From: Bartonella bacilliformis KC583
GTDB lineage: Bacteria; Pseudomonadota; Alphaproteobacteria; Rhizobiales; Rhizobiaceae
Reading direction: 5' to 3'
Length of the DNA: 64,000 nt
Assembly: GCF_000015445.1 (NCBI RefSeq)
Contig: NC_008783.1
Span: forward strand, 1,115,001-1,179,000
Made by a program: the position numbers and the translations under genes. The first letter of the stretch is position 1; each line of letters begins with the position of its first letter. Below are positions 4,830 through 20,603 of the stretch, piece after piece. The notes beneath the pieces were generated by a model. It did not search any database. It was given only the letters and a program-made list of their open reading frames with translations, and was not told the origin of the DNA.

Positions 4830-5240
4830 CAAAAGTTTTCTAATCTATGCCAATTCAGCAGCATAAAACTGCTCATGGCTAAAGGACAAATACATACAAC
4901 CACCACTCCTACCCCATAACGTCAGGAATAACGGTATTGTATGCCACGAAGGAATAGCGCGAAAATCGCGTTACTCTACTTTGTCTGCCTTTTTGATTGG
5001 AGTTGCACAAAACACTTCCGCACTGAAGGCAATGAGGTGTGCCTCTTTAGTTATCTCAGCATCTATAGCTGAAAGACACCAGAAAGGCCCGCACCGTCGT
5101 TGCTTCAAGATGTCCTCATTCTTTCGATTGGCCGCAAGAATGACTGGAGCGGTTAGTTCCAGGTACCGTACCGGTTAATCCCACCATTTGGGAACCAGCG
5201 GACACCCACAGGCACGTGCGACTTTGGGCAATGCTGCGTA
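4830..5240 (-). ncRNA. Probable speF-type cis-regulatory leader RNA
   Basis: The stretch upstream of the decarboxylase is about 400 nt long. It is clearly richer in G and C than other intergenic DNA here and full of local inverted repeats (for example GCGATTTTCGC near 4960-4970, and CCGGTACGGTACCTGG near 5158-5175). Alphaproteobacterial ornithine decarboxylase genes are known to be preceded by a conserved structured element of this size, the Rfam family speF. Position, length and composition agree. I could not run a covariance search, so the boundaries are approximate. Confidence 0.55.
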
Positions 5241-14813: not shown

Positions 14814-15476
14814 ATGAAAGCTGGAAATATTTGCTATAATTGCGAAAATGACTTACCAAAGAAAATTGCTCTCTTTCCTTTAGAAGGTGCGCTGCTTCTC
14901 CCTGGAGGTTTTTTATCGCTCAACATCTTTCAACCAAACGTTCTTGAAATGATTGAGGATGTTATGGCATCTAACCGTCTATTAGGCATTATTCAACCAC
15001 TTTCGTCAGATGGAGACTGCCCCTCTACCCAGCTTTACAAGATGGGCTGCATAGGTCGCATCACAAATTACAATGAAACAGGAAATGGACGACTCCTGAT
15101 TGCACTACAAGGCATTTGTCGTTTTACCCTAGAACAAGAATTAGTAAACACAAAATCTTATCGAGTTGCCATGATTCAATCCAATACAAAAGATTTACAA
15201 GAACCTGACACTTCAGAGAGCATTAATCGGGAAAACTTATTAAACGCTATTGAGCATTATCTAACCATCCATGAAATGGAGCATAACTGGGATAGTATTG
15301 TACAAACACCGACACCGGTATTGGTTAATGCACTCTCAGCCCTTATTCCTTTTGCTCCAGAAGAAAAACAAGCTCTGCTGGAAGCGCCAGACATTGAGAG
15401 CCGTGCTCAAACCCTTCTCGCTTTAACAGAGCGTTCCCTCATGAAACAGAAAGGATTAAACAACCGTTTAAATTAA
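14814..15476 (+). CDS. LON N-terminal-domain protein (LON substrate-binding domain family)
   Basis: The 220-residue protein consists only of the substrate-binding N-terminal fold of Lon protease, with no AAA+ or protease domain. Markers are [42 protein letters not shown], and [27 protein letters not shown]. Such stand-alone proteins are common in alphaproteobacteria next to a Trm112-type gene, as here; their function is poorly known. ATG 14814 is preferred over the in-frame TTG at 14790. The C-terminal third is duplicated about 2.2 kb downstream. Confidence 0.82.
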
Positions 15477-15489
15477 TGGATTTAATGAT

Positions 15490-15666
15490 ATGAAAAAAAT
15501 GACAACCGATCCTAAAATGCTTGAACTTCTTGTTTGCCCCATTACAGGGGGAAACCTCTCTTTTAATCGAAAAACACAAGAACTTATTTCACTCAAAGCA
15601 AAACTTGCCTATCCTATTCGCGACGGTGTTCCCATTATGCTCGCTTCAGAAGCTCGTCCTCTATAG
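15490..15666 (+). CDS. Trm112-family small zinc-ribbon-like protein
   Basis: The 58-residue protein begins [19 protein letters not shown] and contains [11 protein letters not shown], both hallmarks of the bacterial Trm112/YcaR family. The family includes activator subunits of methyltransferases. It has only one cysteine (CPIT), as often in bacterial members. It starts 13 bp after the LON-domain gene stop, so it is co-transcribed. The first two thirds are duplicated at 17722. Confidence 0.88.
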
Positions 15667-16240
15667 GAAAATGGAAATAAATCTTTTCTCTTTATAAAAA
15701 ACGGCTTGTAGATCACCCATAACGCCAATGGATAGACTTTCTCAAATTTACTCTTCTTCAAGGTGTATTTCTTTAAAGAAAACACTCTGAAAAATTAAAG
15801 AAATATCAAAAAATTTCCCCCCGTGATGATATCAAAAAATTAACTATCCCCAAAAAACAGTATCATCGGCAATAACCATGAGTAAAGTGATAAAATATCA
15901 ACACGATACTCCCTTCATGATACTATAATTTTACCAAAAGTTAAAATGAGTATTGATGTCTGAAAAATTTCAATTTTCTCAATATCAAAACTCCTCTATT
16001 TTCTCCAAATTTCTAAGAGAATATCCAGATTTTCTGTATAATATAAGTTTAAAATTCCCTTTAATATTCGTAAAAGTCGGGTTTTGTGTAGAAGAGTATA
16101 TTCAAATAATTCAATTGACAAACAGGGCTTAAATACATAGTTTAGTTATTAAGGCTTTGGACGTTTTTCGTCAAAGATTAAGGGAGGGAAGCAGAAAATC
16201 TTTCGTTTTTAATCTTTTAAAAGTTGAAACTGGATATCTA
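15667..16240. other. AT-rich intergenic region before the first tiny-peptide unit
   Basis: No conventional gene is seen. It begins a 4.9-kb gene-poor stretch (15667-20603) built mostly of tiny-peptide units, an internal duplication and inverted repeats. Confidence 0.5.
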
Positions 16241-16279: not shown

Positions 16280-16312
16280 TGGTAAATTATTTATTATAAG
16301 GGGGGTTATACC

Positions 16313-16396
16313 ATGATTGGTATTTTTTTAAGTCTTTTTGGTTTTTTGGTGAGCGTAGGCGGCATGGTGAATGACATCATTCACAATTTCACGTAA
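16313..16396 (+). CDS. Tiny hydrophobic peptide 1 (27 aa)
   Basis: The peptide begins MIGIFLSLFGFLVSVGG and ends with a polar tail (NDIIHNFT). The first 18 residues could form one membrane helix. A run of six G lies 8 nt before the ATG, inside AATTATTTATTATAAGGGGGG, a stretch shared with the other tiny ORFs at 17105, 18437, 18833, 19209, 19597 and 20014. Sequence after the stop (ATTCTTCAACGAGGAG) also matches the post-stop block of the minus-strand units, so this is the same module in opposite orientation. Function unknown. The size resembles type I toxin peptides. Confidence 0.6.
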   Translation: MIGIFLSLFGFLVSVGGMVNDIIHNFT

Positions 16397-16594
16397 ATAA
16401 CTCTAATGAGTTTATAATCATCTCAATTCTTCAACGAGGAGAGATTTTATGATTTACTGTTCATCCGTTAAGTAGGGTGAAATCAAACGGTGCTCTTTTC
16501 TTCCAGTATATTGCCCAAATTGGTATGTATGCGTGAAGTTGATTTTTCACTCATTTTCTAGTTTTTTAAAATAAGAAAAAAGTGAAAAGGCCTA

Positions 16595-16641
16595 TGATTT
16601 TACTGATACGAAACGATATGAGTAGAAGAATTATTCAATCA
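16595..16641 (+). repeat. Inverted repeat X, left copy
   Basis: GATTTTACTGATACG and the following 30 bp reappear inverted at 16881-16924 with few mismatches. Each copy lies downstream of a tiny-peptide ORF (peptides 1 and 2), so the two modules converge on a common centre. Confidence 0.7.
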
Positions 16642-16659
16642 CTGATCCATGAATAATCG

Positions 16660-16830
16660 CGTTAAATAGTTGAAGTATTGTGATACAATTAATGCAATTA
16701 CCCCATTTGGATTCCCTGCCTATTTGGGGTTTTTGTCTGTTTAGAGATTTTTTCTCGATTTTTGATAGAGCAATCAAGAATAACACAAGCTTCCCGTCTA
16801 TTAGCTTATGTTGCAAAAAGTTGGCAACAA
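16660..16830 (+). repeat. Inverted repeat Y, left copy
   Basis: About 120 bp around CCTATTTGGGGTTTTTGTCTG and GATAGAGCAATCAAGAATAA recurs inverted at about 18015-18150, at roughly 80% identity by eye. Each copy sits downstream (in reading direction) of a tiny-peptide unit. Confidence 0.7.
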
Positions 16831-16880
16831 GTGTTATAAAAACTTACTTGTTCATCTTTCAGATTACTGTCAATGAGAAT

Positions 16881-16924
16881 GATTAAATAATCTTCTGCTC
16901 ATATTGTCTCGTATCAGTAAAATC
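16881..16924 (-). repeat. Inverted repeat X, right copy
   Basis: Reverse complement of the copy at 16595-16641, differing at a few positions. It lies downstream of tiny peptide 2. Confidence 0.7.
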
Positions 16925-17021
16925 ATTGATATCTCTCTGCTCCCTCATTGAAAATGAGAAGTCAAACTTCTATACACATCTGCACTCATGGAAGCAGAGA
17001 ATACCAACTACTTAAACTTAT

Positions 17022-17105
17022 CTAAGCAATAAAGCCACTAATCACGCCATATGACGCAACTCCCGGAACTATAGACATAATAATAGATATTAAAAGTGCA
17101 ATCAT
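17022..17105 (-). CDS. Tiny hydrophobic peptide 2 (27 aa)
   Basis: It begins MIALLISIIMSIVPG and is hydrophobic almost throughout (ends ISGFIA), enough for one membrane helix. A run of eight G lies 4 nt before the ATG, preceded by AATTATTTTTCTTAT, the same layout as the other tiny ORFs. It faces peptide 1 across the X/Y repeats and has the same length. It has no similarity to a family I recognise. Conserved upstream sequence is the main reason to treat it as a real gene. Confidence 0.58.
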   Translation of the reverse strand: MIALLISIIMSIVPGVASYGVISGFIA

Positions 17106-17439
17106 GATACCCCCCCCATAAGAAAAATAATTAAAGATTTAAATAAACATTATATCAAAATACACTTCTTCAAAGATTTAAAAAATGAAATACTGCTTAT
17201 ATTCCTCCCTCTAATCTTCTCTAAATATATTCAGAACTTCAATAAAGAAGATATGTCCCAAACTCTCCTTGTCAACCTTATGATTTAAATATTCTCTTTT
17301 TTTCATCACAAATATTGACATTGATATTGATGAAATACAAATAGTTTTATCTGTGCAACAAATATTACAAAATTTAAAAACCTCATATCAGAAAATCATC
17401 AACCAGAACTGATGAACACAGAGAACCTTGCAATCCCTT
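17106..17439. other. Intergenic region between tiny peptide 2 and the duplicated LON fragment
   Basis: It is AT-rich with no ORF of note. It presumably contains the leader of tiny peptide 2, but no clear hairpin like those in the 18.4-20.0 kb array was found. Confidence 0.45.
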
Positions 17440-17708
17440 GACATTTCAGAGAGCATTAATCGGGAAAACTTATTAAACGCTATTGAGCATTACCTAACCA
17501 TCCATGAAATAGAGCATAACTGGGACAGCATTGATAAACACCGACACCGGTATTGGTTAATGCACTCTCAGCCCTTATTCCTTTTGCTCCAGAAGAAAAA
17601 CAAGCTCTGCTGGAAGCGCCAGACATTGAGAGCCGTGCTCAAACCCTTCTCGCTTTAACAGAGCGTTCCCTCATGAAACAGAAAGGATTAAACAACCGTT
17701 TAAATTAA
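17440..17708 (+). pseudogene. Decayed partial copy of the LON-domain gene (C-terminal third)
   Basis: The sequence is almost identical to 15207-15476 (starting within [21 protein letters not shown]) but lacks the first 130 residues' worth of coding sequence. It has a single-base deletion near 17535 (ATTGATAAACACC against ATTGTACAAACACC) that breaks the frame. No promoter or start is expected. It arose by a segmental duplication that also includes the start of the Trm112 gene. Confidence 0.88.
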
Positions 17709-17721
17709 TGGATTTAATGAT

Positions 17722-17895
17722 ATGAAAAAAATGACAACCGATCCTAAAATGCTTGAACTTCTTGTTTGCCCCATTACAGGGGGAAATCTCTCTTTTAATC
17801 GAAAAACACAAGAGCTTATTTCACTCAAAGCAAATTTTTCCTATCTTAAAAAAAGGCATAAAATTTTCTTAACAACAATGTTAAAAAAGCCGTAA
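17722..17895 (+). pseudogene. Duplicated 5' part of the Trm112 gene fused to unrelated sequence
   Basis: The first 38 codons are nearly identical to the intact gene at 15490. After about 17848 similarity stops, and the frame runs into a lysine-rich unrelated tail (LKKRHKIF...), giving a 57-residue chimera without [10 protein letters not shown]. It keeps the start and CPITGG, so expression is possible but function unlikely. Confidence 0.75.
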
Positions 17896-18368
17896 AATAG
17901 GCAAACCCATCCCTTCTTGCTTTCTCAAGATATTATTTTCAATTTTGAATATAAAAATTATTAAAATGATCGTTTTTAAATGGCTTAATTACATTATTTT
18001 CATAGCATGACATAAGTTAGTAGACAGGAAATTTGTGTTATTCTTGATTGCTCTATCAAAAGTCGAGTAGGAAAAATCTCTAAGCAGACAAAAATCCCAA
18101 ATAGGCAACAAACCTAAATGGGGTGATTGTATATAGCGTATTACAACACTTCAGTTATTGAACAATTTTTATCAATAATTGGAAACTGAATAACCTTCTA
18201 TCTATAATCCACAAAATTTAGTTATACTTACTGTAATAGCTGATAATCTTATTCGTAAAATTTTTACATTACATTTTAGAAGTAAAATATATCGTTCAGT
18301 TTTACCTAATTTAAACGGATACTCAGATAATAAGACAGTCTTCCATTAAAGAAGAAAGATCAATAAGC
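17896..18368. other. Non-coding stretch containing the inverted Y repeat
   Basis: No gene is seen. The middle part (about 18015-18150) is the inverted copy of the 16660-16830 repeat. The right part (18290-18368) is the post-stop block of the tiny peptide 3 unit. Confidence 0.55.
18015..18150 (-). repeat. Inverted repeat Y, right copy
   Basis: Read on the minus strand it shows CCCCATTTAGG, GCCTATTTGGGATTTTTGTC and GATAGAGCAATCAAGAATAA in the same order as 16680-16785. It lies downstream of tiny peptide 3. Confidence 0.7.
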
Positions 18369-18437
18369 TTATAGATTCAACGTGAACAATATTGATTCAA
18401 ATACGTAGACTATCCCAAGGAAAACACCAAAAATCAT
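18369..18437 (-). CDS. Tiny hydrophobic peptide 3 (22 aa)
   Basis: It begins MIFGVFLGIVYVFESILF and ends TLNL; nearly all residues are hydrophobic. GGGGG lies 5 nt before the ATG in AATTATTTATAATGGGGGTT, identical to the stretch before peptide 5. It is the last unit of the minus-strand tandem array. No known family is recognised. Confidence 0.6.
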   Translation of the reverse strand: MIFGVFLGIVYVFESILFTLNL

Positions 18438-18563
18438 AATAACCCCCATTATAAATAATTAAAAATATCTAGATAAGCATTCCTATTTGAAAAGCTTAAA
18501 TTTTCCTAATTAACGTAAGGATTCTCTTACACTTCATAGAGAGAACCCTAACGCATGTATTGT

Positions 18564-18603
18564 GCGCTTAAACATTCATTTGTCAGCTTTACTGTTTAAA
18601 CGC
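18564..18603 (-). promoter_or_regulatory. Leader hairpin A of the peptide 3 unit
   Basis: The 11-nt arms GCGTTTAAACA and TGTTTAAGCGC pair apart from one G-U position, with an 18-nt loop. It lies about 127-166 nt upstream of the tiny ORF start. The loop is identical to that of the copy at 18938-18977. Confidence 0.65.
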
Positions 18604-18770
18604 TCTCTTCCATCTTCCATAAAAATCATGAAATAGAAGTCGTATTACCCTTAAAATATCTTTCGACAATCCATCTTGAAGATAAAAAACAGCTTCATTT
18701 TACCTGATTTACACAGATGATAAAAACAATAGCAATCCTCTATTAAAGAATAAAAAGCTATATAGAACCG

Positions 18771-18833
18771 TTATGGAAGCATGAACCAGAATTCTAGTGC
18801 GTACACAAACCCAACGATAGCCATAAAAACCAT
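18771..18833 (-). CDS. Tiny hydrophobic peptide 4 (20 aa)
   Basis: It begins MVFMAIVGFVYALEFWF and ends MLP. GGGGAGG sits 5 nt before the ATG, with AATTCTTTATAAG further upstream. A longer overlapping frame exists on the same strand (18709-18897) but has no conserved start context. The tiny frame is preferred because start context and spacing match six other loci. Confidence 0.6.
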   Translation of the reverse strand: MVFMAIVGFVYALEFWFMLP

Positions 18834-18937
18834 AATATCCTCCCCTCTTATAAAGAATTAATAAATATTCGCATCCAAAAGGCTTAAATGCTCTCAATTA
18901 TAGAAAAACACCTACCCTCCCCTAACGCATGTATTGC

Positions 18938-18977
18938 GCGCTTAAACATTCATTTGTCAGCTTTACTGTTTAAGCGC
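18938..18977 (-). promoter_or_regulatory. Leader hairpin A of the peptide 4 unit (perfect 11-bp stem)
   Basis: GCGCTTAAACA and TGTTTAAGCGC are perfect 11-bp arms around an 18-nt loop, about 105-144 nt upstream of the tiny ORF. No T run follows, so it is not a terminator. Position within the unit suggests a 5' UTR structure or a dyad operator. Confidence 0.7.
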
Positions 18978-19128
18978 TCTCTTCCATCTTCTATAAAAAT
19001 AATTTTACTTGTAGAATATCTTGCTACAGTTCATCTTGAAATTAGAAAACATTATCCAATCCACCTAATTTAGAAGGATGAAGAACTACAAGAATCTTCT
19101 ATTAAAGAATAAAGAGCAACACAAATTG

Positions 19129-19209
19129 TTACGGATGCATGAAATACGCAGCTTCTAATGGATATACCACCCAAGTTACCAAAACCCATAAAGCATACAA
19201 AAATGCCAT
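19129..19209 (-). CDS. Tiny hydrophobic peptide 5 (26 aa)
   Basis: It begins MAFLYALWVLVTWVVYP, rich in Trp and Val, and ends FMHP. GGGGG is 5 nt before the ATG inside AATTATTTATAATGGGGGTT. Upstream are a well-formed hairpin B (19280-19311) and a degenerate hairpin A (about 19335-19380). Post-stop block CTTTATTCTTTAATAGAAG as in other units. Confidence 0.6.
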   Translation of the reverse strand: MAFLYALWVLVTWVVYPLEAAYFMHP

Positions 19210-19279
19210 AATAACCCCCATTATAAATAATTAAAAAATATCTAGATAAACAATCGTATTTGCAAAGCTTAAATTCTCT

Positions 19280-19311
19280 CTATGAACGTAAAAATGTTCT
19301 GATGTTCATAG
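19280..19311 (-). promoter_or_regulatory. Leader hairpin B of the peptide 5 unit
   Basis: CTATGAAC and GTTCATAG form a perfect 8-bp stem with a 16-nt loop, 71-102 nt upstream of the tiny ORF. The peptide 6 unit has an equivalent at 19675-19700. Confidence 0.6.
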
Positions 19312-19543
19312 AAAAATATACAGAGCTCAATGCATTTACCGTATGTTTAAACATGACTGGTAAACCCTATGTCTAAGTGCCTTTCTTCCATAAAAATCAT
19401 AAAACAGAAATCGTGTTACTCTTAGAATATTTTTCTAAATTTCATTGTAGAAATAGAAAAGATTATTCAATCTCTACCTGATTTCAATGGATAAAAAACA
19501 ACAGAACTCCTCTATTGAAGAATAAAAGCTCTACAGAACATGC

Positions 19544-19597
19544 TTAACCAAAAATAGAAAATAGCTCGACAGCAAGCAATGCAAGAAAACCAAACAT
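19544..19597 (-). CDS. Tiny hydrophobic peptide 6 (17 aa)
   Basis: This is the shortest member: MFGFLALLAVELFSIFG. GGGGGG lies 6 nt before the ATG. Upstream are both leader hairpins (19675-19700 and 19737-19771). With 17 residues it barely spans a membrane, so it could be a decayed or leader-type member; its flanks are as well conserved as in the others. Confidence 0.55.
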   Translation of the reverse strand: MFGFLALLAVELFSIFG

Positions 19598-19674
19598 ATG
19601 CAGCCCCCCATTTTTACAGACAATTAACAAAATTCCAGATAAACACTCACATCTGAAAGGCTTAACTTTCTCTA

Positions 19675-19700
19675 TGAACGTAAAAATGTTCTGACGTTCA
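19675..19700 (-). promoter_or_regulatory. Leader hairpin B of the peptide 6 unit
   Basis: TGAACGT and ACGTTCA form a perfect 7-bp stem with a 12-nt loop, 78-103 nt upstream of the tiny ORF. Confidence 0.6.
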
Positions 19701-19736
19701 CAGAAAAATATACGGAGCTTTAATGCATTATTGTAT

Positions 19737-19771
19737 GCTTAAACATGACTGATAAACCACTCTGTTTAAGC
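19737..19771 (-). promoter_or_regulatory. Leader hairpin A of the peptide 6 unit
   Basis: GCTTAAACA and TGTTTAAGC form a perfect 9-bp stem with a 17-nt loop whose sequence differs from the copies at 18564 and 18938. Stem conserved, loop changed: this supports a structural role. Confidence 0.65.
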
Positions 19772-19954
19772 TTTCTCTTCCATATAAATCAAAAATAGAA
19801 GTAGTAGTGTTACCCTTAGGATATCTTTCTAGATTTCATTGTAAAAATAGAAAAGATTACTCAATTCTATCTGATTTAAACAAATGAGAAATACAATTAG
19901 GCAATTTTCCATGAAAAAACAAAAAAATTACACTAACCGTGAATGTATGAAGTA

Positions 19955-20014
19955 TTATACTTCTAATCCATACACAATATTAAAAACCCAAGAAACAAGA
20001 AATGCAAAAATCAC
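19955..20014 (-). CDS. Tiny hydrophobic peptide 7 (19 aa, GTG start)
   Basis: The start codon is GTG; the peptide continues IFAFLVSWVFNIVYGLEV. GGGGGG is 5 nt upstream, preceded by AATTATTATAATACAA. It is the most upstream unit of the minus-strand array. Its own upstream hairpin is not obvious. The final residues (YGLEV) resemble YALEF in peptide 4 and YPLEA in peptide 5, hinting at a shared Y-x-LE motif. Confidence 0.55.
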   Translation of the reverse strand: MIFAFLVSWVFNIVYGLEV

Positions 20015-20603
20015 AATACCCCCCTTGTATTATAATAATTAACAAGATACTTAGACAAAATAAAAATACATCTACGTAAGCACTCATGTTTGAGCGCTTG
20101 TGTCTTAGATTAAGGTAAACATCTTTATTAATTTCAGAAACCCCCAACTCTTGTTTTGTAAATATTTAAATCTATTTGTCAAATATTATTTTATATTTAT
20201 GCAAAAAATATTTATAATGTTAAGATACAAATAATTTTATGTGTATAATCAATGTTTTAAAATTCAAAAGCCTCACAGCTAACATAATAATAACAGTGTA
20301 ATAATTGACAGGATATGAGGAATTCTCTAGATTGGAGCCTCGTCAGAGAAATGTTCATACAGCCCAGCATAAAATACTCAAATTTTTCTCAGTTTTCAAG
20401 ATTAGCAAAAGCGGTTAATTGCAAAATAAATCGGTTGTGAATGTTGTGATCATAACCAATATACGTGTAAGATCGTATTTAAGAAAATGAAAATAAAGAT
20501 TATTCAATATTCGTCAGCCAACTCACCCTTTCCTGATCTAGTACAGGAAAGAAGATCGACAGTGTATTAGTTTTTTAAAATAAAGGTATAGGAGTGTAAA
20601 GCC
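20015..20603. other. 589-bp region between the tiny-peptide array and asd
   Basis: It is AT-rich with no gene seen. It must hold the leader/promoter of the array (minus strand) and the asd promoter (plus strand). Confidence 0.5.

Follow-up and report, generated by a model that had tools for sequence, protein, structure and literature searches.

Seven tiny open reading frames (ORFs) in the genome of Bartonella bacilliformis KC583 (1,445,021 bases, one contig), which we call u1–u7, probably are real genes and appear to have been selected as peptides. They lie within the window analyzed here, 64,000 nt of contig NC_008783.1 (bases 1,115,001–1,179,000; all positions below are window positions), inside a 4.9-kb stretch that has no ORF of at least 100 codons and that we term the gene desert. 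Each ORF spans 17–27 codons and follows a G-rich Shine-Dalgarno (SD) sequence located 4–7 nt before the start codon; u1 is encoded on the plus strand and u2–u7 on the minus strand. Our best reading is that they represent a new family of an already known kind of system. More specifically, and tentatively, we interpret them as mini-genes for single-helix inner-membrane peptides that may act like type I toxins. Related sequences occur in two further genomes, G007, which is B. bacilliformis Ver097 or a near twin (Ver097 hereafter), and G002, a probable B. ancashensis genome. The ORFs and the array that contains five of them are as follows.

16313-16396, plus strand: u1 ORF, 27 amino acids (aa), MIGIFLSLFGFLVSVGGMVNDIIHNFT; presumed ancestral member, with orthologs in Ver097 and G002.
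17105-17022, minus strand: u2 ORF, 27 aa, MIALLISIIMSIVPGVASYGVISGFIA; in the opposite orientation to u1.
18437-18369, minus strand: u3 ORF, 22 aa, MIFGVFLGIVYVFESILFTLNL; the Ver097 ortholog is MIFGIFLGLVYVFESILFTFNRSAY.
18833-18771, minus strand: u4 ORF, 20 aa, MVFMAIVGFVYALEFWFMLP.
19209-19129, minus strand: u5 ORF, 26 aa, MAFLYALWVLVTWVVYPLEAAYFMHP.
19597-19544, minus strand: u6 ORF, 17 aa, MFGFLALLAVELFSIFG.
20014-19955, minus strand: u7 ORF, 19 aa, GTG start, (M)IFAFLVSWVFNIVYGLEV.
18370-20190 (outer limits approximate), minus strand: tandem array u7-u6-u5-u4-u3 of ~390-bp units, each with a leader, G-rich SD and ORF.

A first-pass annotation of this DNA had proposed seven such ORFs in two orientations, and all are present. 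Its description of their surroundings needs some correction. The ribosome-binding site (RBS) is a run of 5–8 G in six units and GGGGAGG in u4, and its distance from the start is 4–7 nt rather than 4–8. The AT-rich leader, said to be near-identical throughout, reads exactly AATTATTTATAAT in u3 and u5 only and is merely similar elsewhere. In these same two units a second ATG (18449 and 19221, minus strand) lies in frame 12 nt upstream and shares bases with the G run; a start there would add an MGVI- extension. The Kyte-Doolittle (KD) hydropathy of the peptides is 1.24–2.09, reaching 2.07–2.57 over the best 15 residues; as judged by hydropathy alone rather than by a transmembrane predictor, they seem short and hydrophobic enough to span the inner membrane.

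Chance origin of the seven sites is excluded. Between 16000 and 20600, seven G-run sites are followed by a hydrophobic ORF of 15–30 aa, whereas 1000 dinucleotide shuffles averaged 0.091 such sites and never exceeded 2. Five of the seven units are tandem duplicates of one unit, so the sites do not amount to seven independent events. Elsewhere in the window (59.4 kb), the identical rule finds six sites. Over 158 codons, the reading frame of the units contains no stop, while the alternative frames contain 17 and 4; the probability of a stop-free frame given the composition of the flanks is 1.8e-5, which is too favorable a figure, the units being related.

The composition of the encoded peptides points to selection on their properties. 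When bases were shuffled within each ORF and only stop-free outcomes were kept, 10.4 Lys or Arg residues were expected where the 151 residues of u1–u7 have none, and mean KD was 1.10 versus the 1.77 observed; neither observed value was reached in 5000 shuffles. The excess of hydropathy holds in subsets, including u1, u2 and u3 (P 0.0016), u1, u2 and u5 (P 0.005) and u3–u7 alone (P 0.007). Among the 41 other ATG-initiated ORFs of 15–30 codons in the desert, seven have a KD of at least 1.2, five are free of Lys and Arg, and four combine both features; all four are alternative starts of u2, u3, u4 and u5.

Conservation of u1 adds a second line of evidence. In KC583, the desert is bordered on one side by a Lon-N-domain gene (PF02190) and a short ORF that we take to be Trm112-like, and on the other by asd, identified by its semialdehyde dehydrogenase domains. 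Syntenic orthologs of u1 are found in Ver097, near the end of contig 5, and in G002, where u1 again stands between the gcv/Trm112-like genes and asd. The KC583 and G002 ORFs align without gaps at 68% nucleotide identity, compared with 37–44% for their flanks, and the peptides are 56% identical. The first-pass annotation had named persistence of the flanks alone as the outcome that would count against it; for u1, the opposite is seen. Between the two genomes, dN is 0.34 and dS 0.84 (dN/dS ~0.4), and random substitutions of the same number and kind yielded a similar, Lys/Arg-free peptide of equal hydrophobicity in 0.024% of 50,000 trials (1.8% for hydropathy, 21.6% for absence of Lys/Arg and 1.4% for similarity taken singly). 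Together with the composition tests, the u1 orthologs back the proposal of membrane-directed peptides.

The peptides of the array units differ widely, with identities to u5 of 25–63%. In the ten pairs of u3–u7, the ORF is less alike than the upstream flank in seven, but less alike than the downstream flank in only four, so we make no claim of accelerated ORF evolution and dropped a description of u3–u7 as hypervariable ORFs between conserved flanks. The earlier statement that peptides vary while flanks are conserved thus applies in part to these paralogs and is reversed for u1. The constraint on u1–u7 is best read as one on hydrophobicity rather than on sequence.

The family has a narrow distribution. 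We searched 71 Bartonella genomes with a leader profile and with the peptides, and convincing members were detected only in KC583, Ver097 and G002. The 11 sequences used to build the leader profile necessarily match it. At E≤0.05 it had matches in 25 of the 71 genomes; the 11 matches at E<1e-6 are all family members (seven in KC583, three in Ver097, one in G002). Of the 32 weaker matches (best 0.0014), 26 were inspected on the correct strand and none precedes a family-like ORF; the other six are two near contig ends and four without a locus. Within the other 68 genomes, matches to the profile have E values of 0.0046 or weaker. Two weak matches in neighboring species have one 14-residue ORF in common, which contains Lys/Arg. 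The peptide search returned four genomes at E≤1, the fourth (G068, 0.36) judged a chance match, and a DNA search returned 11, those beyond KC583 and Ver097 being weak (E≥2.3e-4) and lacking a family ORF.

A scan of the 1505 nt upstream of asd, in the 30 genomes with such loci, likewise found family ORFs in KC583, Ver097 and G002 only. The Trm112-like gene falls inside the locus in 8 of the 27 other genomes, so that the whole interval was covered there; in the remainder, coverage is the 1505 nt. Two ORFs at one locus (L043), with AGGG and starts other than ATG, are chance occurrences, and another locus (L037) has one ORF containing Lys/Arg. We found no description of the u1–u7 locus in the literature searched, a search that did not take in the coordinate tables of the small RNA (sRNA) candidates in PMC7717549.

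Copy number differs between close relatives. G002 has u1 only, and Ver097 has u1, u2 and, in place of the five array units of KC583, a single unit with a u3-like ORF and a u7-like upstream flank. Because G002 has u1 alone, we tentatively favor growth of the array in KC583 over its shrinkage in Ver097. u1 and u2 are more distant from the array units, but sequence downstream of u1 recurs at u2 (90% over 48 nt) and u3 (80% over 115 nt). In the scenario we propose, u1 would be the ancestor, dating from the B. bacilliformis/ancashensis lineage; u2 would then have arisen by inverted copying and the Ver097 state of u3 as another copy, from which the five tandem units of KC583 would derive. Inverted repeats at 16594-16811, 16891-16926 and 18010-18193 bound the u1/u2 segment, and the u2 segment has the opposite orientation in Ver097, which suggests inversion through these repeats.

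Several sequences near the ORFs resemble expression signals.

16115-16120, plus strand: -35-like TTGACA of u1, 198 nt before the u1 ORF; equivalents at -197 in Ver097 and -117 in G002.
17275-17270, minus strand: -35-like TTGACA of u2.
16700-16730, plus strand: terminator-like hairpin and U run found by pattern scan, ~300 nt past the u1 stop (-11.8 kcal/mol, z -1.91).
18096-18122, minus strand: terminator-like hairpin and U run that closes the u7-u3 array, ~250 nt past the u3 stop (-15.3 kcal/mol, z -3.33).
18179-18208, plus strand: sole candidate antisense promoter, TTGGAA-18-TATAAT; weak; transcripts from it would run into u3 from the 3′ end.

In u1, u2, u3, u4 and u7, TTGACA or CTGACA occurs 127–198 nt before the ORF; u5 and u6 have a degraded form of this element. 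In G002, u1 forms a compact unit consisting of a promoter-like element (TTGACA-17-CATAAT, 11/12), the 27-codon ORF, and a hairpin with U run ~43 nt past the stop; this hairpin has a loop longer than the pattern scan permits and is absent from the scan list. The array-closing hairpin is also present in Ver097 (z -4.44), as are the hexamers and spacing of the candidate antisense promoter. In u4 and u6, the arms GCTTAAAC and GTTTAAGC flank the -35 element ~20 bp apart (~18560-18610 and equivalents); the arrangement is nearly kept in u3 and imperfect in u5, and may be an operator or a hairpin.

Under our preferred explanation, each unit would be an expressed mini-gene, with a sigma70-like element as promoter (degraded in u5 and u6), then a 5′ leader, a strong G-rich SD and a coding sequence for a single short membrane helix. 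That the ORFs are translated seems quite likely from their sequence features; given translation, analogy with known toxins makes type I-like action somewhat the better assumption. The peptides would insert in the inner membrane of the cell that makes them and act by bulk hydrophobicity, in the manner of Ibs, Zor or Ldr; their output would be restrained at transcription or by RNA until stress or a niche shift. Like u1–u7, Ibs genes occur in repeated copies. The Ibs peptides of the E. coli Ibs/Sib type I systems further resemble u1–u7 in length (IbsC, 19 aa), in forming a single hydrophobic helix, in having no positive C terminus and in tolerating sequence change, according to sections of PMC8309996 and PMC7192591. 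Both frameshifted versions of IbsC stay toxic and depolarize the membrane (reported in a section of PMC7192591), the kind of sequence tolerance that u3–u7 display. They differ in that Sib, an antisense RNA, spans the ibs ORF (as outlined in PMC3919570), and no RNA of this kind was identified at u1–u7, nor was there a profile match.

Zor/Orz of E. coli O157:H7 (ZorO, 29 aa) likewise consists of tandem-duplicated tiny hydrophobic ORFs. In the portions of PMC3919570 and PMC8309996 that treat it, ZorO has a regulatory 5′ untranslated region, and the latter source names tandem duplication of small hydrophobic proteins among the criteria by which it was found. Orz, a divergent sRNA whose complementarity extends over 18 nt, has no counterpart identified at u1–u7, and a profile match was again lacking. 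The Ldr/Rdl and Fst systems (Fst/Ldr family) share the layout of long direct repeats, each with a tiny hydrophobic ORF, but Ldr is 35 aa long with cationic C-terminal residues (in the part of PMC8309996 devoted to it), whereas u1–u7 are 17–27 aa without Lys or Arg. Taken together, tolerated sequence change with hydrophobicity kept, likeness to IbsC and the search criteria that found ZorO make self-directed membrane activity under tight control the likeliest function.

A number of observations weigh against this interpretation. Positive C-terminal residues, a common trait of type I toxins, are missing from u1–u7, as they are from IbsC, ShoB and DinQ (per the relevant part of PMC8309996). Pfam and NCBIfam gave no matches at E≤10 for the seven peptides submitted (u1–u5, G002 u1 and Ver097 u3), with u6 and u7 left out as too short and with filters that can lose very short peptides; membership in curated peptide families such as Ibs, Ldr/Fst, Hok and TisB is not supported. 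Freedom from Lys/Arg is not absolute, since u3 of Ver097 extends further at its C terminus and the added stretch contains one Arg. u1 shows little codon-position bias (9, 7 and 10 differences at positions 1, 2 and 3), the dN/dS of u3 is ~0.8, from five changes only, and the Ver097 ortholog of u2 has ATA at the start position, its frame nevertheless open for 29 codons.

Evidence on regulation also counts against it. Neither promoter-like sites (28 vs 24.3 ± 4.8 in shuffles) nor terminator-like sites (2 vs 1.7 ± 1.4) are in excess in the region, and an antisense RNA gene at the locus is putative, with no statistical sign of one. A hairpin that hides the RBS, frequent though not universal in the 5′ untranslated regions of type I systems, is inconsistent: mean z over 11 sequences is -0.97, with values below -2 in u7, u3 and Ver097 u3 and from -1.23 to +1.4 in the other eight. 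The SD run lies within a hairpin loop in u3, u5, u7 and Ver097 u3, which is not general, and accessibility of the G run ranges from 0.16 to 0.81 across units without pattern. We rejected an RBS-sequestering hairpin as a family feature, as only some units show it. The RNA control envisaged in the first-pass annotation accordingly draws on conserved leaders and terminator-like hairpins, but not on any promoter excess or consistent sequestering hairpin, and on a single antisense candidate. With no statistical sign of a repressing RNA, which type I systems additionally require (antisense or divergent, and complementary to the mRNA), u1–u7 remain candidate members of type I toxin-antitoxin systems.

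Other explanations account for parts of these data. Translation could yield harmless small membrane proteins that modulate a membrane complex (a transporter, sensor or protease), with no toxin or antitoxin involved and copies serving as dosage or variants. The composition evidence fits this equally, u1 is kept in sequence across species, and a search of the region found no antitoxin; however, docking to one partner should preserve sequence, and neither the divergence among u3–u7 nor the unequal copy number in KC583 and Ver097 agrees with this, and we consider it rather unlikely. A broader reading, which we think unlikely, is a growing lineage-specific repertoire of membrane peptides that act on the cell producing them: the leader, SD and 3′ frame would be copied in tandem while the ORFs vary freely within the bounds of a hydrophobic, nearly Lys/Arg-free helix, and copies would gain their own control (e.g., antisense RNA) and give the membrane a different state in the sand fly than in the human host. 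An sRNA family, functional through leader and 3′ part and with an incidental or secondary ORF (a dual-function RNA), would explain why whole ~390-bp units are alike, leaders to the same degree as ORFs, and why terminator-like hairpins follow the u1 and u3 ORFs by ~250–300 nt. RNA sequencing of KC583 under ten conditions gave 160 sRNA candidates; of those that were novel, 57 are intergenic (PMC7717549). Yet it is the u1 ORF and not the RNA flanks that forms the conserved island between KC583 and G002, hydrophobicity and missing Lys/Arg are unexpected for a noncoding RNA, and the consensus fold of the array is weak with an unfavorable covariation term (+2.6); we regard this explanation as improbable.

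Decaying duplicated intergenic DNA, in which T-rich sequence yields hydrophobic ORFs for free, matches the rearranged state of the region (duplication and inversion), the nonstandard start of Ver097 u2 and the T-rich composition of the ORFs, but composition-matched shuffles fail to reproduce the hydropathy or the absence of Lys/Arg and the u1 ORF is conserved where its flanks diverged, leaving this a distinctly improbable account. Regulatory leader peptides (attenuators) of downstream genes, which the first-pass annotation had offered as an alternative, appear very improbable. Short ORFs with a strong SD would suit that role and u1 of G002 points toward asd; the gap from u1 to asd is 1.1 kb in G002 and 4.2 kb in KC583, and the next same-strand ORF of at least 100 codons after u2–u7, gcvT, ends at least 3 kb away. 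Judged on this lack of a close same-strand gene and on the hairpins after u1 and u3, attenuation is unsupported. Brt RNAs, which accompany Trp (helix-turn-helix, HTH) genes, resemble u1–u7 in being Bartonella-only, repeated and intergenic. We rejected this identity as well: an HTH gene follows Brt, whereas no ORF of at least 100 codons lies between the Lon-N gene and asd, an Rfam scan of the u1–u7 interval gave nothing at gathering score, and Brt has no copies in B. bacilliformis according to the section of PMC5387305 on its distribution.

Other features of the surroundings were noted. A duplication with copies at 15195-15603 and 17428-17835, 91–99% identical and 2.2 kb apart, takes in the 3′ portion of the Lon-N-domain gene together with the 5′ portion of the Trm112-like gene, and Ver097 has a second, inverted Trm112-like piece at a contig end. 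G002 (L052 4060-6835) keeps gcvT, the Trm112-like ORF, u1 and asd; the Lon-N-domain gene was not found in the 8-kb region. At 4925-5229 (minus strand), a speF leader adjoins an ar45 sRNA. Both exceed the Rfam gathering score and are known elements, Northern-tested according to part of PMC7717549. Just upstream of asd, at 20459-20594, a sub-threshold match to lysM-TM7 RNA (23.3 bits against a gathering score of 61.5, E 0.48) is probably due to chance.

To our knowledge, repeated type I-like systems are rare in alphaproteobacteria, and u1–u7, if our preferred explanation is true, would provide an example from this class. The presence of one versus five copies in two close strains constitutes a natural experiment on array change. 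If translated and membrane-active, the peptides would form a lineage-specific family of the agent of Carrion's disease, encoded in an intergenic region without a 100-codon ORF.

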